From the IMG/VR virus record IMGVR_UViG_3300023235_000146, positions 1-22,819 of that record: DNA of 22,819 bases; one strand, written 5' to 3'. The stretch comes from a virus. Of this stretch, positions 11,978 through 22,819 are shown piece after piece. Made by a program: the position numbers and the translations under genes. The notes under the pieces were generated by a model. It searched no databases. It had not been told where the DNA came from and worked only from the letters and a program-made list of their open reading frames with translations. Every line of letters starts with the position of its first letter. Position 1 is the first letter of the stretch.

Positions 11978-12645
11978 ATACACCATTAATAAAGTGGACT
12001 GGCTCAAAACGCCCAATCGCCGCAAAAATAACATCACACTTTCCAAGGGAAATTGAAACTTATTATGAACCATTTGTAGGTGGTGGTTCTGTATTTTTCA
12101 GACTATTAAAAGATAACGCAAATGTTAAAAAGTTTAGACTCTCGGATAAAAACGATAGCTTAATTAATATTTTAAAAATCGTTAAAGACGATCCCCGAAA
12201 ATTAATCCTTTCGTATAGGGAGAAATGGGAGGAACTACAAAAAGATCCGAATTTCTTTTATACGGAGCGAGAAACTTACAATAAAACCAAAGACCCATTC
12301 ATTTTCTACTTTCTAACGAGAACCTGCTATAATGGAACTATTAGATACAATAGAAAAGGGGAATTTAATACGTCACATCATTTCGGAAGAACCGGAATGC
12401 AACCCAAAACGGTCGAAGAAGTTATATCGTATTACTCAGAATTAATGAAGGGGAAAGATATTGATTTTACTTGCGGTTCGTTTGAGAGTATTTCCCCAAA
12501 AGGCGAAAAAGACGTTGTTTATTTAGACCCGCCATATACGAATACCAAGGCATTATATTTTGGTAATATATCATTCGATGGTCTTCTGCCTTGGGTAGAT
12601 GAACTTCCTTGTTCATGGTTTATGAATATTAATGGTGTAATATAA
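11974..12645 (+). pseudogene. dam: Dam-type adenine-N6 DNA methylase, 5' part, interrupted by IS607
   Basis: The frame reads INTPLIKWTGSKRPIAAKIT, then YYEPFVGGGSVFFRLL, later CYNGTIRYNRKGEF, and YLDPPYTNT. These are the hallmarks of D12-class adenine methylases: KWxGxK and FVGGGS bind SAM, DPPY is catalytic motif IV. The enzyme methylates adenine in double-stranded DNA, typically GATC. The frame is intact up to CSWFMNINGV, where the IS607 element begins, and stops three codons later in element DNA. The 3' part resumes at 14610. No ATG is available at the N-terminus: the best start is ATA at 11974, 8 bp after GGAG, overlapping the upstream stop. A single G-to-A change from ATG would explain this. 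As it stands the product lacks its C-terminal region and is probably inactive. Confidence 0.85.
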
Positions 12646-12722
12646 TCTCGCATATAGTTTTAATTTTTATTTATTTATTTTAATAAATCTTTTCACATTT
12701 TAGATTTTAAGATGTAATATAA
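12636..12722 (+). repeat. IS607 left end with a 10-bp direct repeat
   Basis: TGTAATATAA occurs exactly at the element tip (12636-12645) and again at 12713-12722, just before the tnpA start, 77 bp apart. The DNA between is almost entirely A/T. Repeated short motifs at IS607 ends are expected to bind the TnpA helix-turn-helix domain. The inner copy also overlaps the tnpA leader, so TnpA could repress itself. Function is inferred. Confidence 0.5.
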
Positions 12723-12726
12723 GGTA

Positions 12727-13296
12727 ATGAGAATTAAATTATCAAAATGGGCAAAAGAAAATGGGGTGTGTTATCATACCGCCCATAAATGGTTTCATCA
12801 AGGGAAAATAGAGAACGCTATTCAGCTTGATACTGGAACTATAATGGTAAATATTATAAAAATCAATAAAAAAGAAGACAGGGCTCTTATTTACGCTAGG
12901 GTCAGCAATCAATCGAGGAAAGCGGAAATGGAATACCAAGTAGATAGGATATCAGATTTCGCCAAAGCTAGGGGAATTTGTGTTGATAAGATTTATAAAG
13001 AAGTGGCTTCTGGGATGAATGACAATAGAAGTATGTTTTGGAAAATGATAGACTCAAACCCAACATCTATAATTATAGAAAACAAGGATCGTCTTACTAG
13101 GTTCGGCTATAATTATCTAGAAAAACTTCTTTTAAAACAGGGTTGTGAAATTATAGTGATCAACAAAGACGAAGAAGACGAGAAAGATCTGATGAAAGAT
13201 TTGGTGTCGATTCTAACTTCATTTTGTTGCAGACTCTACGGGCTGAGAAGAGGAATTAATAAAGCTAAAAAAGCGAAGGAGGCTATCCGTGATTAA
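12727..13296 (+). CDS. tnpA: IS607 TnpA, serine recombinase transposase
   Basis: 189 aa. It has the inverted domain order unique to IS607 transposases: an N-terminal MerR-like helix-turn-helix (KLSKWAKENGVCYHTAHKWF) followed by the resolvase catalytic domain. The catalytic serine is in YARVSNQSRK, with downstream landmarks ISDFAKARG and IIENKDRLTRFGYN (the arginine-bearing DRLTRFG motif). It would catalyse cut-and-paste movement at a short shared core. Length is usual for the family. The 3' end overlaps the tnpB start by 8 bp. No catalytic residue is obviously missing. Confidence 0.93.
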   Translation: MRIKLSKWAKENGVCYHTAHKWFHQGKIENAIQLDTGTIMVNIIKINKKEDRALIYARVSNQSRKAEMEYQVDRISDFAKARGICVDKIYKEVASGMNDNRSMFWKMIDSNPTSIIIENKDRLTRFGYNYLEKLLLKQGCEIIVINKDEEDEKDLMKDLVSILTSFCCRLYGLRRGINKAKKAKEAIRD

Positions 13297-14578
13297 GAGT
13301 TCTTCTCATACCTTCTCCAGAGTAAACTCGGGGAAACAAGATATTTTAAATGAATTTTTAAATGAGTATAGGCTCGCTGCTCAAACCATCGTGAATCATA
13401 TTTGGAAGAATGGGTGTTCGGGAGGAGATGGGGAGTTTAATGTAAAGGAAAGTAAGCTAGACATGCCTTCAATGCTGCAAAGCTCAATAGCGACCGACGC
13501 GGGAGTGGACGCGGCTTTAACTGGAAGGGCCCTTAAATGCTGCATTACTCAGTGCTGCGGGATGATTAGAGCTGAGACAGAAAAGCAGAGAAAGAGATTA
13601 TATATATTAAAAAAGAAAAAGTCCGAAGGAGTTGGTAAGAAAAAGCTAGGAAAGCTGATTAAACGAATTAAAGAAAATATCCCCGTTAAGCCAAATTGCT
13701 CCAATATAAACGCAGAATTAAATTCTATATGCATGGATATTCAAGACGGAAATAGCTTTGATGGTTTTGTCAGACTTAAATCTATTTTTAAAGATAAACG
13801 GGAAATTAAAATTCCCTTTGACTTTCATAAAAAAGCAAATGAATTAAAGGCTAAAAGCTCTAGAATGTTAAATTCTATTTTAATTTCCAATAAAAAGATC
13901 AATTTAAGATGGGAGATTCCAAAGGCCAAGAAGAGAATTAATGGCGAGGTTGTTGGGGCGGATCAAGGTTATAAGGATGTTTTGAATATAGCTAACAAAG
14001 ATATTGCAATCAAAACTCCTAAAACCTGCATTCATGACCACTCCTTAGAATCTATCATTTGCAAAGTTTCAAAAAAGAAAAAGGGCTCAAATGCTTTTAA
14101 AAGAGCCAAGTTACATCAAAAGAATTTTGTTAATTGGTCATTAAACCAATTAAATTTAAAAGATGTTAAGCAAATAAATTTGGAAAAAATTTGGAATATC
14201 GGTTATAAGACTGGTAAATCAAGAAAGATGAGCCACTGGCAAAATACGCTGATAAGAGACAAGGTAATTGACCTTTGTTTAGTAAATGGGGTCCATTTTA
14301 CTGAACAGAGTTGCACCTATAAGTCTCAAAGGTGTTTTGGTTGTGGAAGCGTCCGTAAGGCAAATCGGAAAGGGAAGGTTTATGAATGTAAGAATTGCGG
14401 TAACGTAGATGATGCTGATGAAAACGCGGCTAGAAACCATTCGATATTCCTCCCCGAAATCCCGTATTCTTTACGGAAACTAAATCTAAATAGGAAAGAT
14501 GGCTTCTTTTGGAATCCAGATGGAATATTTAATTTAGAAGGTAGGAGCTTACAGTCCTTACCGTGCGTCGAAGTTTAA
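13289..14578 (+). CDS. tnpB: IS607-type TnpB RNA-guided nuclease
   Basis: 429 aa, starting at GTG 13289 inside the tnpA end, with a strong Shine-Dalgarno AAGGAGG at 13276-13282. The RuvC site appears complete: VVGADQGYKD (Asp225), INLEKIWNI (Glu299) and DADENAARNH (Asp377). A zinc ribbon lies between the second and third motifs: SQRCFGCG (C349, C352) and YECKNCG (C367, C370). TnpB proteins use a guide RNA made from the element's right end to cut DNA next to a target-adjacent motif, which helps the element persist after excision. The 71 residues from Ile331-Leu400 onward end in an unusual tail with no known motif (WNPDGIFNLEG). Good Shine-Dalgarno use contrasts with the phage genes and agrees with foreign origin. 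Confidence 0.93.
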   Translation: MIKSSSHTFSRVNSGKQDILNEFLNEYRLAAQTIVNHIWKNGCSGGDGEFNVKESKLDMPSMLQSSIATDAGVDAALTGRALKCCITQCCGMIRAETEKQRKRLYILKKKKSEGVGKKKLGKLIKRIKENIPVKPNCSNINAELNSICMDIQDGNSFDGFVRLKSIFKDKREIKIPFDFHKKANELKAKSSRMLNSILISNKKINLRWEIPKAKKRINGEVVGADQGYKDVLNIANKDIAIKTPKTCIHDHSLESIICKVSKKKKGSNAFKRAKLHQKNFVNWSLNQLNLKDVKQINLEKIWNIGYKTGKSRKMSHWQNTLIRDKVIDLCLVNGVHFTEQSCTYKSQRCFGCGSVRKANRKGKVYECKNCGNVDDADENAARNHSIFLPEIPYSLRKLNLNRKDGFFWNPDGIFNLEGRSLQSLPCVEV

Positions 14579-14610
14579 TGTTTAATGTTTATTAACATTT
14601 AAACTAACTG
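14579..14610 (+). repeat. IS607 right end, likely end of the TnpB guide RNA scaffold
   Basis: Only 32 bp separate the tnpB stop from the dam junction. They contain TTTAATG twice in tandem and an imperfect inverted repeat, TTTAATGTT against AACATTTAAA, which could form a terminal hairpin. In TnpB systems the guide RNA spans the 3' end of tnpB and this right end, with the guide copied from the flanking DNA. The guide here would begin around 14611 with TAATTCTACGGATAAC, from dam. The RNA 5' end cannot be placed from sequence alone. Confidence 0.45.
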
Positions 14611-15833: not shown

Positions 15834-15998
15834 ATGACTAAAAATAAAAAGCTAGAAAAAGGAACCAAGATTACAACCAACGGCGGAACAAAAGGCGTAA
15901 TCAAGTCTTACCTTGGCGCAGATGAATACCTTTGTGAAATGACAAGTCGGAACGGTCACTATGTTACGCAAATTAGTATAGACAATATAAAGAAATGA
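15834..15998 (+). CDS. Small protein, 54 aa, coupled to the AAA ATPase
   Basis: It begins MTKNKKLEKGTKITTNGGTK and ends VTQISIDNIKK. The pattern KGTKI...GTKGVIKSYLGADEYLCEM...NGHYVTQISIDNI reads as a small five-stranded SH3-like or KOW-like barrel, as found in many small phage proteins. Its TGA overlaps the ATG of the AAA ATPase gene (ATGA), so the two should be translated together. It could be an accessory subunit of the ATPase; this is inference from coupling. It is preceded by A-rich DNA (ATAATAAA) and no Shine-Dalgarno site. Confidence 0.7.
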   Translation: MTKNKKLEKGTKITTNGGTKGVIKSYLGADEYLCEMTSRNGHYVTQISIDNIKK

Positions 15999-17215
15999 TT
16001 GAGTGGATAATAAACGAGTTCCAAACAAACCAGTTTTTTTCTGGTGGCATAAGTATTGCTATTTTTACTTCTGCTTTGTATTTATTAAAAAATTTGCCAG
16101 CAAAAATAAGCTCTTTGGTGAATAAACATCTAATTTATACGATTAGAGTAAACAACAGTGATACAGAACTTTACAATTTTGTTTCTGATTGGGTTTCAAA
16201 AAAAACAGAGGGGCAAACAAAAAGAATAAAACTTGTTAGAAAAAGGCCATCTGAACAAGTAGACGATAATCCATACTCGCTCCCAAGAACTGGTAAAGCA
16301 AAAAAATCTTCCAACGGAAGTTATTTTTCGAAAACAATTAATTACGGAACCCATTATTCTTTTTCTAGAAATGGATTTTTGTCAATTTCTTGCAACTTGG
16401 AAAACTCGGAAAACATGATTGAAAGAAAAGAATATATAGTCATTAAGTTCTTTTGCCGCAATCAAAATGAACTTAATGACCTATACAACACTATAGAAGA
16501 AAATTTCAAAGAAACAAACAAAGAAAATAGAATCTATATTCATGATTATGATTACTTTAGAAAAATCAAAAAAGAAAATAATAGAAAGATAAATTCAATA
16601 TTTTTAAATAACAATGTAAAAAAAGAGGTATTAGAAGACCTAGATTGTTTCTTTTCTGAGGAAAATAAATACAAGGACCATTCTTTCAATTATAAAAGGG
16701 GCTATCTATTTTACGGTAAACCGGGAACTGGTAAAACAAGTTTTATAAAAGCTTTGGCTAATTACTATAATAAAAGGCTTTATTATTTTAATTTGAGCGA
16801 AATCGGTGGTATTAAAGAACTAAAAAAACTATTGTTTGATTTGGCAGAAAATGTTTTTATCGTTTTTGAAGATATTGATATTTTGAGCGCAACAGAAAAA
16901 AGAGAAGAAACAAAAAACAAATTGAAATCCGATAATAGCTCCTCTATTAGCTTGCAGAGCCTTCTTTCTTTATTGGATGGTGACGATTTGCCTGATGGAA
17001 CAGTTATTTTTGCCACAACAAATTATTACGAAAATTTAGATCCAGCTTTAATAAGAGACGGAAGATTTGACGTAAAGAAAGAATTAAAATACGCTGATAA
17101 AAAATTAGCTCTTGAAATGGCAGATTTTTTCGGAGTAAAAGATAAAGATAGGGTTGAAAAACTTTCTTTTCCAATCTCACAAGCAGAATTACAAAATATA
17201 TTTTTTAAATTATGA
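15995..17215 (+). CDS. BCS1-like membrane-anchored AAA ATPase
   Basis: 406 aa. The N-terminus has one membrane segment (about 15-33, FSGGISIAIFTSALYLL), followed by a beta-rich domain (about 45-200) and a C-terminal AAA module: Walker A YGKPGTGKTS (240-249), Walker B IVFEDIDIL (289-297) with the ED pair typical of BCS1, LLSLLDG, and sensor/arginine-finger region IFATTNYYENLDPALIRDGR (338-357). This is the plan of BCS1, which in mitochondria moves a folded iron-sulfur protein across the inner membrane. Bacterial and phage relatives are of unknown substrate. It is coupled by ATGA overlaps to the 54-aa gene before and the 156-aa gene after. Its presence in a phage suggests work at the host membrane or in inter-phage or host conflict, which I cannot decide. 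Confidence 0.85.
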   Translation: MIEWIINEFQTNQFFSGGISIAIFTSALYLLKNLPAKISSLVNKHLIYTIRVNNSDTELYNFVSDWVSKKTEGQTKRIKLVRKRPSEQVDDNPYSLPRTGKAKKSSNGSYFSKTINYGTHYSFSRNGFLSISCNLENSENMIERKEYIVIKFFCRNQNELNDLYNTIEENFKETNKENRIYIHDYDYFRKIKKENNRKINSIFLNNNVKKEVLEDLDCFFSEENKYKDHSFNYKRGYLFYGKPGTGKTSFIKALANYYNKRLYYFNLSEIGGIKELKKLLFDLAENVFIVFEDIDILSATEKREETKNKLKSDNSSSISLQSLLSLLDGDDLPDGTVIFATTNYYENLDPALIRDGRFDVKKELKYADKKLALEMADFFGVKDKDRVEKLSFPISQAELQNIFFKL

Positions 17216-18195: not shown

Positions 18196-18249
18196 ATGTT
18201 ATTTACAGAAAGAGTAAAAAACAAAATAAAAAATAACAAAAAAATATGA
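18196..18249 (+). CDS. Tiny basic ORF, 17 aa
   Basis: MLFTERVKNKIKNNKKI, then TGA overlapping the next ATG as ATGA. The overlap is the reason to list it; such short coupled ORFs are frequent on this strand. Otherwise there is no evidence that it is expressed. Confidence 0.2.
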   Translation: MLFTERVKNKIKNNKKI

Positions 18250-19411: not shown

Positions 19412-19600
19412 ATGGTAATAGATTTTTCAAAATATTGTATTTTTTATGAGCAATTTAACGTGATAGACTTAGAGCTTTATGTTGAATTTTTGGAAAAATT
19501 TATTGTAGTTTTGACGGAGGATTTAAAATATGGAGCAATGCTTATTGAATCCGAGAAATTTTATTTTACTTATATCCAACCCACTAATCCAAAAAAATAG
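19412..19600 (+). CDS. Unknown small protein, 62 aa
   Basis: It begins MVIDFSKYCIFYEQFNVIDL and is rich in aromatic and aliphatic residues (ELYVEFLEKFIVVL). No motif is recognised. The pentamer DFSKY also occurs in the 131-aa protein encoded at 20023, again followed by a leucine-rich helix (ILEYLSLFQDLIEI), which hints that this is a truncated relative of the genes that follow. It is the first gene after a possible promoter. Confidence 0.6.
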   Translation: MVIDFSKYCIFYEQFNVIDLELYVEFLEKFIVVLTEDLKYGAMLIESEKFYFTYIQPTNPKK

Positions 19601-19618
19601 TTTATTTTTCAAAGAGTT

Positions 19619-20026: not shown

Positions 20027-20418
20027 GCCAAAAATTTAATACACAAAAATACATAGGTGAGCCAACTATAAATCTAAAAAACCTAATAACAATTACAGAC
20101 AAGATGTTTTTTTATCTAAAATATTACTCGTATAAAAATTTTTTTAAAGGAGGAGAAACATCTTTGTATTTTGATTTTTCGAAATATAAAGACGCGCAAA
20201 ATATTTTGGAATACCTATCTTTATTTCAAGATTTGATAGAGATAACAAATAAAAAAATACAATTAGAAATAACCCTCGAATATATAGGATATCAATTACC
20301 AGACTTAATATATATACCAATCAGTTTCGAAATAAAAATCTTTGAAAAACAATTAATCAAAGATTTAAAAGAGTGCCGCGACTTTTTAGAATATATTTTG
20401 GCGTATCAACAATTATGA
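20023..20418 (+). CDS. Unknown protein, 131 aa, second of a coupled set
   Basis: It begins MSQKFNTQKYIGEPTINLKN and ends LKECRDFLEYILAYQQL. The middle has SLYFDFSKYKDAQNILEYLS followed by QLEITLEYIGYQL, alternating beta and helix. The ending resembles that of the preceding protein, suggesting an old duplication. Its TGA overlaps the next ATG in the sequence AATTATGA, matching the previous junction. No known family. Confidence 0.7.
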   Translation: MSQKFNTQKYIGEPTINLKNLITITDKMFFYLKYYSYKNFFKGGETSLYFDFSKYKDAQNILEYLSLFQDLIEITNKKIQLEITLEYIGYQLPDLIYIPISFEIKIFEKQLIKDLKECRDFLEYILAYQQL

Positions 20419-20774
20419 ATTATAAAAATCAAACCCAAGAACATTTAGATGCCCACGAAACTAATCTTTTTACATATAAAATTTTAGCAGAAAAAATAAT
20501 AGATAAATTTTCAGATAAACTTGGAACAATAAAAGAAATGCGAGTGGATTGGGTTGACCAAAAAAAATTTTTATATAGTGGATACACAATAAAAAATGCG
20601 AATGCAATGGTTTTATTCAACTTGGAAACCATAGGCAAATCTTTTAATGAAGTAGTCGGGCATAAAATATCATTAGAAATTAAAGACTGGAGAGAACAGT
20701 GGTTTATGATCGGCAATGTTAAAAGGTTTGGTCTTTATTTGCGGGGATTAGATTGTTCAAGCGAATTTGTTTAG
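20415..20774 (+). CDS. Unknown protein, 119 aa, third of a coupled set
   Basis: It starts at ATG 20415, overlapping the previous stop; earlier non-ATG starts are possible but less likely. It begins MNYKNQTQEHLDAHETNLFT and contains GTIKEMRVDWVDQKKFLYSG and KISLEIKDWREQWFMIGNV. The N-terminal helix followed by alternating strands is like its two neighbours, but no clear sequence match is visible. Its TAG overlaps the TAA of a convergent small gene on the other strand (20771-20774). Function unknown. Confidence 0.7.
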   Translation: MNYKNQTQEHLDAHETNLFTYKILAEKIIDKFSDKLGTIKEMRVDWVDQKKFLYSGYTIKNANAMVLFNLETIGKSFNEVVGHKISLEIKDWREQWFMIGNVKRFGLYLRGLDCSSEFV

Positions 20775-20830
20775 TATTCTCCTAAAAGTCCATTGAGATA
20801 GTTAACGTGATTTTGAATTTCTGTATTCAT
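20771..20830 (-). CDS. Tiny ORF at the end of the GC-rich cassette, 19 aa
   Basis: It starts inside the stop of the 49-aa gene (ATGA) and reads MNTEIQNHVNYLNGLLGEY. Low GC, unlike its upstream partner. The stop overlaps that of the convergent plus-strand gene. Too short to assign; the coupling is the only support. Confidence 0.35.
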   Translation of the reverse strand: MNTEIQNHVNYLNGLLGEY

Positions 20831-20976
20831 CGAATATAGTAAGTCTTCCCGCCGAATTCTACTGTTGTATAATCCATCTTCAGTTCTTCCGCCGCCGTGT
20901 CCCAGTCAGGGCTGGCAGCTTCTGCCCTGAGCAACTGCCGCAGGTGGATTTCGATTTCATGTGTAAGTCTGCTCAT
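20827..20976 (-). CDS. Small GC-rich gene, 49 aa
   Basis: It begins MSRLTHEIEIHLRQLLRAEA, a helical segment, and ends VEFGGKTYYIR, a short beta hairpin. The middle, ASPDWDTAAEEL, is acidic. G/C-ending codons dominate over the first two thirds (CTG, CGG, GCC, ACG), and AT content returns near the 3' end. It follows the 136-aa gene by 17 bp and precedes a 19-aa ORF with ATGA coupling. The ending resembles LTFEGKRYKLIKE of the broken gene at 21730 in the same operon. Function unknown. Confidence 0.6.
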   Translation of the reverse strand: MSRLTHEIEIHLRQLLRAEAASPDWDTAAEELKMDYTTVEFGGKTYYIR

Positions 20977-20993
20977 GTCGGCACCCTACGCAG

Positions 20994-21404
20994 TCACGTC
21001 TTGTCTATCTTCTCAGTGAACGTCACCGGGAAGTAGAGCTCTTCGGTCTCTCTGCCCTCGGCGATCTCCATGATGTTCCGCAGGTGTGCATCCAGTGAAG
21101 CCGCTGAATACCCCAGCAGGGCACCTAGGCTTCCGTTCCGGGGTGGTCCCGAGTAAGGCATCCAACCATCCAAGGTCTGGGCAGCCCACCACGGGAGTGC
21201 GTCCCAGTCGAGTTCTGCGAAGCGCATGTAGCCTTTGTCGCTGCAGGTGCCACCGTGTTTCTTGAACAGCCTCAGTGATGCTTGCCAGATCCGCTCTGCC
21301 ACATCTGGGCTGGGGATGAATTCCTTGTCGGACAGGTAGGCTTCTGCCTTGCGATCCAGATCCTCAGCACCGGCCGCCAGTCTTGCAAATAGGTTGTAGC
21401 TCAT
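20994..21404 (-). CDS. Unknown GC-rich gene product, 136 aa
   Basis: It begins MSYNLFARLAAGAEDLDRKA and contains VAERIWQASLRLFKKHGGTC, LDWDALPWWAAQTLDGWMPY, SGPPRNGSLGALLGY and ELYFPVTFTEKIDKT. Tryptophan-rich and helical, no membrane span, no enzyme motif; I recognise no family. It has the strongest Shine-Dalgarno of the window (AAAGGAGGTGG, 21412-21422) and G/C-ending codons throughout, so it seems to come from a GC-richer donor with normal Shine-Dalgarno use. The start overlaps the 22-aa upstream gene as ATGA, and the next gene follows after 17 bp. Confidence 0.75.
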   Translation of the reverse strand: MSYNLFARLAAGAEDLDRKAEAYLSDKEFIPSPDVAERIWQASLRLFKKHGGTCSDKGYMRFAELDWDALPWWAAQTLDGWMPYSGPPRNGSLGALLGYSAASLDAHLRNIMEIAEGRETEELYFPVTFTEKIDKT

Positions 21405-21469
21405 TCCGCTACCACCTCCTTTAGAAGATCCTCAACGACTTTCATGGCCTTCGTCAGAATAATTTCCAT
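21401..21469 (-). CDS. Small coupled ORF, 22 aa
   Basis: It begins MEIILTKAMKVVEDLLKEVV and ends AE, an amphipathic helix. A Shine-Dalgarno site (GGAGGAC, 21474-21480) lies 6 bp upstream, within the last codons of the 84-aa gene. The stop overlaps the start of the 136-aa gene as ATGA, and the whole Shine-Dalgarno of that gene lies inside this ORF. It therefore looks like a translated coupling leader or a genuine micro-protein. Confidence 0.5.
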   Translation of the reverse strand: MEIILTKAMKVVEDLLKEVVAE

Positions 21470-21470
21470 A

Positions 21471-21725
21471 TTAGTCCTCCAGTGTAAACTTAATAGCTTC
21501 AACTTCTTCCTTATCTTTATTCACTTTCACGATTTCCTGAGTCGTCGCGTCTTTGAATTGGTTAGTGTTTATTCCCTTCGCCGCCAACCATTTTTTAGGA
21601 ACCATTGCTTCTCCACCTTCAATTAGCTCAGAAAGCTTTTGAATGTTGACTGAGACGTATGGTTTGTGACCCGCTGGACGACCCCGCTCGCGCTTTGTTG
21701 TTGTTTTTTCTTTTGTTTTTGTCAT
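21471..21725 (-). CDS. Small basic protein with an AT-hook-like motif, 84 aa
   Basis: It begins MTKTKEKTTTKRERGRPAGH, where RERGRPAGHKP resembles the AT-hook RGRP core that grips the minor groove of AT-rich DNA. The rest (VSVNIQKLSELIEGGEAMVP and KGINTNQFKDATTQEIVKVN) looks like a small folded domain. A DNA-binding or regulatory role is plausible but inferred. It starts 4 bp after the stop of the broken upstream gene, and its TAA overlaps the following start region (TAATATG). It has no Shine-Dalgarno site, unlike the next two genes. Confidence 0.65.
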   Translation of the reverse strand: MTKTKEKTTTKRERGRPAGHKPYVSVNIQKLSELIEGGEAMVPKKWLAAKGINTNQFKDATTQEIVKVNKDKEEVEAIKFTLED

Positions 21726-21729
21726 AAGT

Positions 21730-21967
21730 TTATTCTTTAATTAATTTATACCTTTTACCCTCAAAAGTCAAGACATTTTCTGGAGAATTTTTCGACTCTT
21801 CTTCGATTCCCGTCTCAACCAAGGAGATTCCCTCTCCTGCCGAGATTCCCGATCCTGATTTAGCGAGGATTCTCCCGACAACCTTTAATTTTTTATCGAA
21901 AAAGACATTCCCAAGATTTTCGTCGATTTCAACGTGCCCGTTAAAATCCGACGTATTTTGTTTTCAT
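21730..21967 (-). pseudogene. Small gene broken by one base in a T-run (about 78 aa if repaired)
   Basis: From ATG 21967 the frame reads MKTKYVGF and stops at once. Removing one T from the TTTT run just after GGA (near 21944) restores an open frame continuing NGHVEIDENLGNVFFDKKLK, then GRILAKSGSGISAGEGISLV, to ENVLTFEGKRYKLIKE and TAA at 21730. The repaired protein has alternating short beta segments with regular glycines, suggesting a small beta-helix or beta-solenoid, as in several phage accessory proteins. No alternative start is present downstream of the break. Either a real mutation or a sequencing/assembly error in a homopolymer. Confidence 0.65.
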
Positions 21968-22011
21968 ATTTTTAAATATATTTTATTTCTTCAAGAAAGT
22001 CAAATTATTTA

Positions 22012-22162
22012 TTAAAGTGTTTTGAAGAATTTAACCACTTCTCTCGTAAGAGACCTCTTTCCCTTAATATCCATCAAACCTTTCTTCAGCAAGGCATGTT
22101 CGTATTTCTTCCTAATAACTTCTTTCTGATATGCGCGAATATCATCGTTTTTTAGAAAACAT
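22012..22162 (-). pseudogene. Small gene broken by one base in an A-run (about 49 aa if repaired)
   Basis: From ATG 22162 the frame reads MFSKKR and stops. Removing one A from the run of six A's that follows MFS restores a frame reading NDDIRAYQKEVIRKKYEHAL, then LKKGLMDIKGKRSLTREVVK, ending FKTL at TAA 22012. It is small, basic and helical, with no recognised domain. It is the first gene of the minus-strand micro-gene run and has an extended -10 promoter 26 bp upstream. It has the same kind of single-base homopolymer error as the next gene. Confidence 0.6.
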
Positions 22163-22187
22163 TATAGCCTATAGATATCTATGACTG

Positions 22188-22796: not shown

Positions 22797-22819
22797 TCTT
22801 TTTTTTATTTTGTTTTTTT

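Follow-up and report, generated by a model that had tools for sequence, protein, structure and literature searches.

A 1353-bp insert with a GC-rich core interrupts a native gene in the right arm of an AT-rich tailed phage and was probably acquired from another phage

Morons and hypervariable regions of tailed phages bring genes of foreign composition into or between native genes, where they are carried by only some of a set of near-identical relatives. A typical moron is a trimmed single gene with its own promoter and terminator. The insert described here lies in an AT-rich virus record (IMGVR_UViG_3300023235_000146, positions 1 to 22,819; hereafter the window) whose phage genes include terminase and PhoH, and shares these traits; it would be a moron-like or hypervariable-region acquisition and thus of a known kind. 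Conversely, the block is oriented antisense, truncates a native gene and ends in broken ORFs, which is suggestive of a raw chunk of donor DNA rather than such a trimmed single-gene moron. With regard to gene content, an ArdA protein consisting of the C-terminal part only, sArdC, has been reported to have anti-restriction activity (PMC12548430).

A search with the window terminase retrieved six contigs with 99-100% identical terminases, all of which have the structural arm in common with the window at ~99.5% identity. One of them, IMGVR_UViG_3300012178_000015 (G003), is about 98-99.5% identical to the window, also covers the right arm, and is the only relative contig to cover the empty site. 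There, the sequence runs uninterrupted from ...GAATTTGTTTA into TGATATGCG..., and the counterparts of window positions 20773 and 22127 are adjacent, with no base of the flanks lost and none duplicated. The insert is thus present in one genome and absent, base-exact and with intact flanks, from a close relative. An earlier note on this DNA had placed a cassette at 20830-21440 within an AT-rich, SD-less operon; the stretch gained is roughly double that length, and it is antisense to the native gene that it interrupts, hence not part of a native operon. The same note had argued for a genuine acquired module over an assembly join, which is borne out by the empty site. A chimeric contig, with phage sequence and unrelated GC-rich DNA fused during assembly, would be compatible with a single metagenomic contig and with the lack of a second contig carrying the same insert. 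Still, the assembly would have had to go wrong twice, once out of and once back into one and the same phage, with the two breakpoints at neighbouring bases, and GC-rich segments occur in the right arm of other relatives from separate samples as well, so that we regard it as very unlikely.

The composition of the insert is unlike that of its recipient. A two-state HMM returned a single long GC-rich segment with a posterior of 1.0, which is also the best GC-rich segment by maximal-segment score (58% GC compared to a genome average of 32% in native DNA). Its score of 73.4 contrasts with at most 13.8 in a Markov null of 200 sequences modelled on native DNA, and in 300-bp windows the GC fraction stays at 0.56-0.59 across 20851-21450. 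On the minus strand, the segment spans all of the 136-aa ORF and the greater part of the 49-aa ORF, with GC3 values of 0.69 and 0.54, respectively, versus 0.19-0.38 for native genes. The GC-rich stretch and its preference for G/C-ending codons, both first noticed by eye, are therefore real. Across the whole insert, GC content follows a gradient from 28-30% at the ends over ~40% to the 58% of the core.

A tandem series of paralogues closes with the interrupted native gene. The G003 version of this copy ends in YDMREYHRFLENIITYRDL, a C-terminal tail that is common to the paralogues of both contigs and lost only in the interrupted window copy, which stops at the insertion. The loss of a conserved tail identifies the insertion as the derived state. 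Were the insert ancestral and removed from G003 by a clean deletion, the deletion would not have rebuilt a tail shared among paralogues, and the foreign composition likewise speaks for a recent gain; the outgroup polarity is thin, as two contigs only cover the site, yet we consider an ancestral insert highly improbable. Within the same series, ~297 bp of the G003 sequence are missing from the window at 19592-19605. The ends share TTTAT, and this absence looks like a microhomology deletion.

Table 1. Coordinates of the insert, its ORFs and the interrupted native gene in the window.
Feature	Position	Strand	Basis or remark
Whole acquired insert, 1353 bp, 45% GC	20774..22126	.	Absent from G003, flanking bases adjacent there
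GC-rich core of insert	20882..21431	.	HMM; maximal-segment score with Markov null
Native gene truncated by insertion	20415..20774	+	Continues YDMREYHRFLENIITYRDL in G003
Stranded 3' end of truncated native gene, beyond insert	22127..22180	+	
C-terminal ORF fragment, ending ...YQKEVIRKKYEHALLKKGLMDIKGKRSLTREVVKFFKTL and stop, cut by right junction	21990..22126	-	
Degraded ORF, ...SDFNGHVEIDENLGNVFF...VLTFEGKRYKLIKE and stop, no in-frame start	21734..21980	-	
84-aa ORF, 42% GC, without SD; part of insert, not native	21471..21725	-	
22-aa ORF, GGAGG upstream; stop overlaps start of 136-aa ORF (ATGA)	21401..21469	-	Sequence and SD scan
136-aa ORF, Shine-Dalgarno AAAGGAGGT	20994..21404	-	One relative
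49-aa ORF, ArdA-like C-terminal module, N-terminal part missing	20827..20976	-	phrog_25535
19-aa ORF MNTEIQNHVNYLNGLLGEY, ATGA-coupled to 49-aa ORF; ends at left junction	20774..20833	-	Sequence

On the minus strand and starting from 22126, the insert holds the C-terminal fragment and the degraded ORF, followed by the closely spaced 84-, 22-, 136- and 49-aa ORFs and then by the 19-aa ORF (Table 1). An 8-nt Shine-Dalgarno (SD) match, AAGGAGGT, precedes the 136-aa ORF, and GGAGG precedes the 22-aa ORF. Matches before native genes do not exceed 5 nt (AAGGA, in front of the gene that begins at 945), and the sole other strong SD, AAGGAGG, is found before the TnpB gene of an inserted IS607 element. 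Overall, two of the four insert ORFs have a match of at least 5 nt, versus one of the 25 native ORFs (p about 0.04, calculated by hand). The proposal that two strong SDs set the insert apart from the phage genes thus holds for the 136-aa ORF, the only insert ORF with an unmistakable SD, while the signal of the 22-aa ORF is less clear-cut. Stop and start are adjacent or overlapping for the ORF pairs 84/22, 22/136 and 49/19, and the couplings noted at the borders do exist (TAA-T-ATG at 21473-21467, ATGA near 20830), next to an ATGA at the 22/136-aa overlap. However, the AT-rich partners, i.e. the 84-aa and 19-aa ORFs, are located inside the insertion, so that a coupling to native genes is unsupported. 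A Bacteroidota-type promoter motif, tried as a clue to the host, gave four scattered matches.

Searches for a donor returned no matching DNA. At the protein level (phages, plasmids, viral contigs and genome contigs), only one relative of the 136-aa protein and the ArdA-like tail were recovered; the 84-aa ORF had no relative in these searches, and the degraded ORF none in phages. PADLOC and NCBIfam gave nothing useful for the insert ORFs, and neither Rfam nor a PDB sequence search gave a match. The one detectable relative of the 136-aa protein has 116 aa, is 50% identical in the alignment (L002 9995-10345) and sits in a 112-kb viral contig, where the surrounding 20-kb stretch has 54% GC. There was no match in curated libraries or in phage or plasmid records, nor in genome contigs at the sensitivity of the scan used for these. 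The product belongs to no known family according to the curated libraries, PADLOC and NCBIfam, as suspected from the sequence, and we assign it to a putative near-orphan phage protein family. An AlphaFold model was set aside (mean pLDDT 42, two sequences).

The 49-aa ORF corresponds to the last part of longer phage proteins that are ArdA-like (phrog_25535). Some members of this phage family are annotated as ArdA-like, and 3 of 8 alignment members match PF07275; the 49-aa ORF itself has no Pfam match, the ArdA model included, and falls outside the ArdA family as defined by that model. In layout it resembles sArdC, which is likewise C-terminal-only (PMC12548430), and it differs from ArdA in that it lies outside the Pfam model and is mildly acidic, with a charge of only about -3 by count. 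As the ArdA-like C-terminal module is retained, countering host defences such as restriction would be the most likely role of the insert ORFs, although this assignment is tentative and on balance doubtful. It is quite possible that the insert is a neutral passenger instead, because its SD signals follow the translation style of the donor and not that of the recipient.

The window insert is not the only foreign segment in this arm. G003 carries its own GC-rich insert of ~3.07 kb (L010 4012-7078) between window positions 18209 and 18210, with up to 57% GC in 500-bp windows. Its genes include a DNA methyltransferase (phrog_757) and a phrog_1229 protein, next to further small phage-type ORFs; homologues of the two phrog proteins are spread across many phages. 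A further relative, G005 (L006 1-341), shares with G003 the initial ~90 bp of that insert, followed by a different gene at the same ATG position. Based on these differing insertions at another site, the right arm is a hypervariable zone in which foreign genes are acquired. The window itself contains an IS607-family serine recombinase and a TnpB-like gene (12639-14608), which are missing from G002, G003 and G005 and hence represent another recent insertion. Further along (15995-17215), the window encodes an AAA ATPase whose N-terminal domain is BCS1_N-like (BCS1_N, E 7.8e-10), which would be unusual for a phage gene. Just past the right end of the window at 22819, the G003 sequence (L010 1-427) contains short tandem repeats, which probably explain why the window contig ends there.

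The fold of the leader common to G003 and G005 is an attC-like hairpin (z -3.0). Three spacers of the G003 insert have better folds than their shuffled versions (z -3.0 to -3.8) and three do not. Several of its ORFs end in an AAC...CAAGG motif, picked after inspection, which occurs 6 times against 1.6 expected, with 5 of 500 simulations reaching 6. A search with this motif found no match in the window insert. As the spacing and core sequences presumably do not fit the attC consensus and the motif is missing from the window insert, an integron reading of the G003 insert was set aside as only a weak lead. There is just a slim chance that, as G003 and G005 suggest, the right arm holds a dedicated cassette-swapping site, with a shared attC-like leader of ~90 bp and differing foreign genes immediately after it, which would make the phage an integron-like collector; if so, the window insert would have arisen as a by-product of this recombination-prone arm. 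That the window insert is a mobile element with an insertion mechanism of its own (transposon, homing element or integron-type cassette) is scarcely probable: despite the IS607/TnpB element in the same phage and the attC-like folding spacers at the edge of the G003/G005 insert, inspection of the insert and its ends found none of the recombinase or endonuclease ORFs, terminal inverted repeats or target duplication of such elements, and the G003 spacer motif is missing.

Foreign composition, an empty site in a relative and a truncated native gene are established, and it is likely that this AT-rich tailed phage acquired the 1353-bp fragment from another, more GC-rich, SD-using phage. The donor was probably a phage, since both the relative of the 136-aa protein and the family of the 49-aa ORF are found in phage or viral genomes. 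A co-infecting phage of this type would have supplied the DNA, and illegitimate recombination, the most likely route, would have placed the block in the hypervariable right arm, antisense to the 3' end of the native gene. Partial ORFs at both ends, together with the lack of a recombinase, terminal repeats and target duplication, are consistent with a piece of donor DNA taken at random. Those ORFs that are intact (84, 22, 136 and 49 aa) may constitute an early accessory unit with coupled translation.

In summary, the probable acquisition from another phage would make this an ordinary case of phage gene acquisition, caught early. It provides an unusually clear before/after pair, in which un-ameliorated foreign genes were gained across a large gap in GC content and translation signals, and the near-identical genomes of the lineage display no fewer than two gains of this kind at separate sites. 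Moreover, the comparison exposes a putative near-orphan 136-aa phage family and an ArdA-like C-terminal ORF of very small size, both of which are testable.
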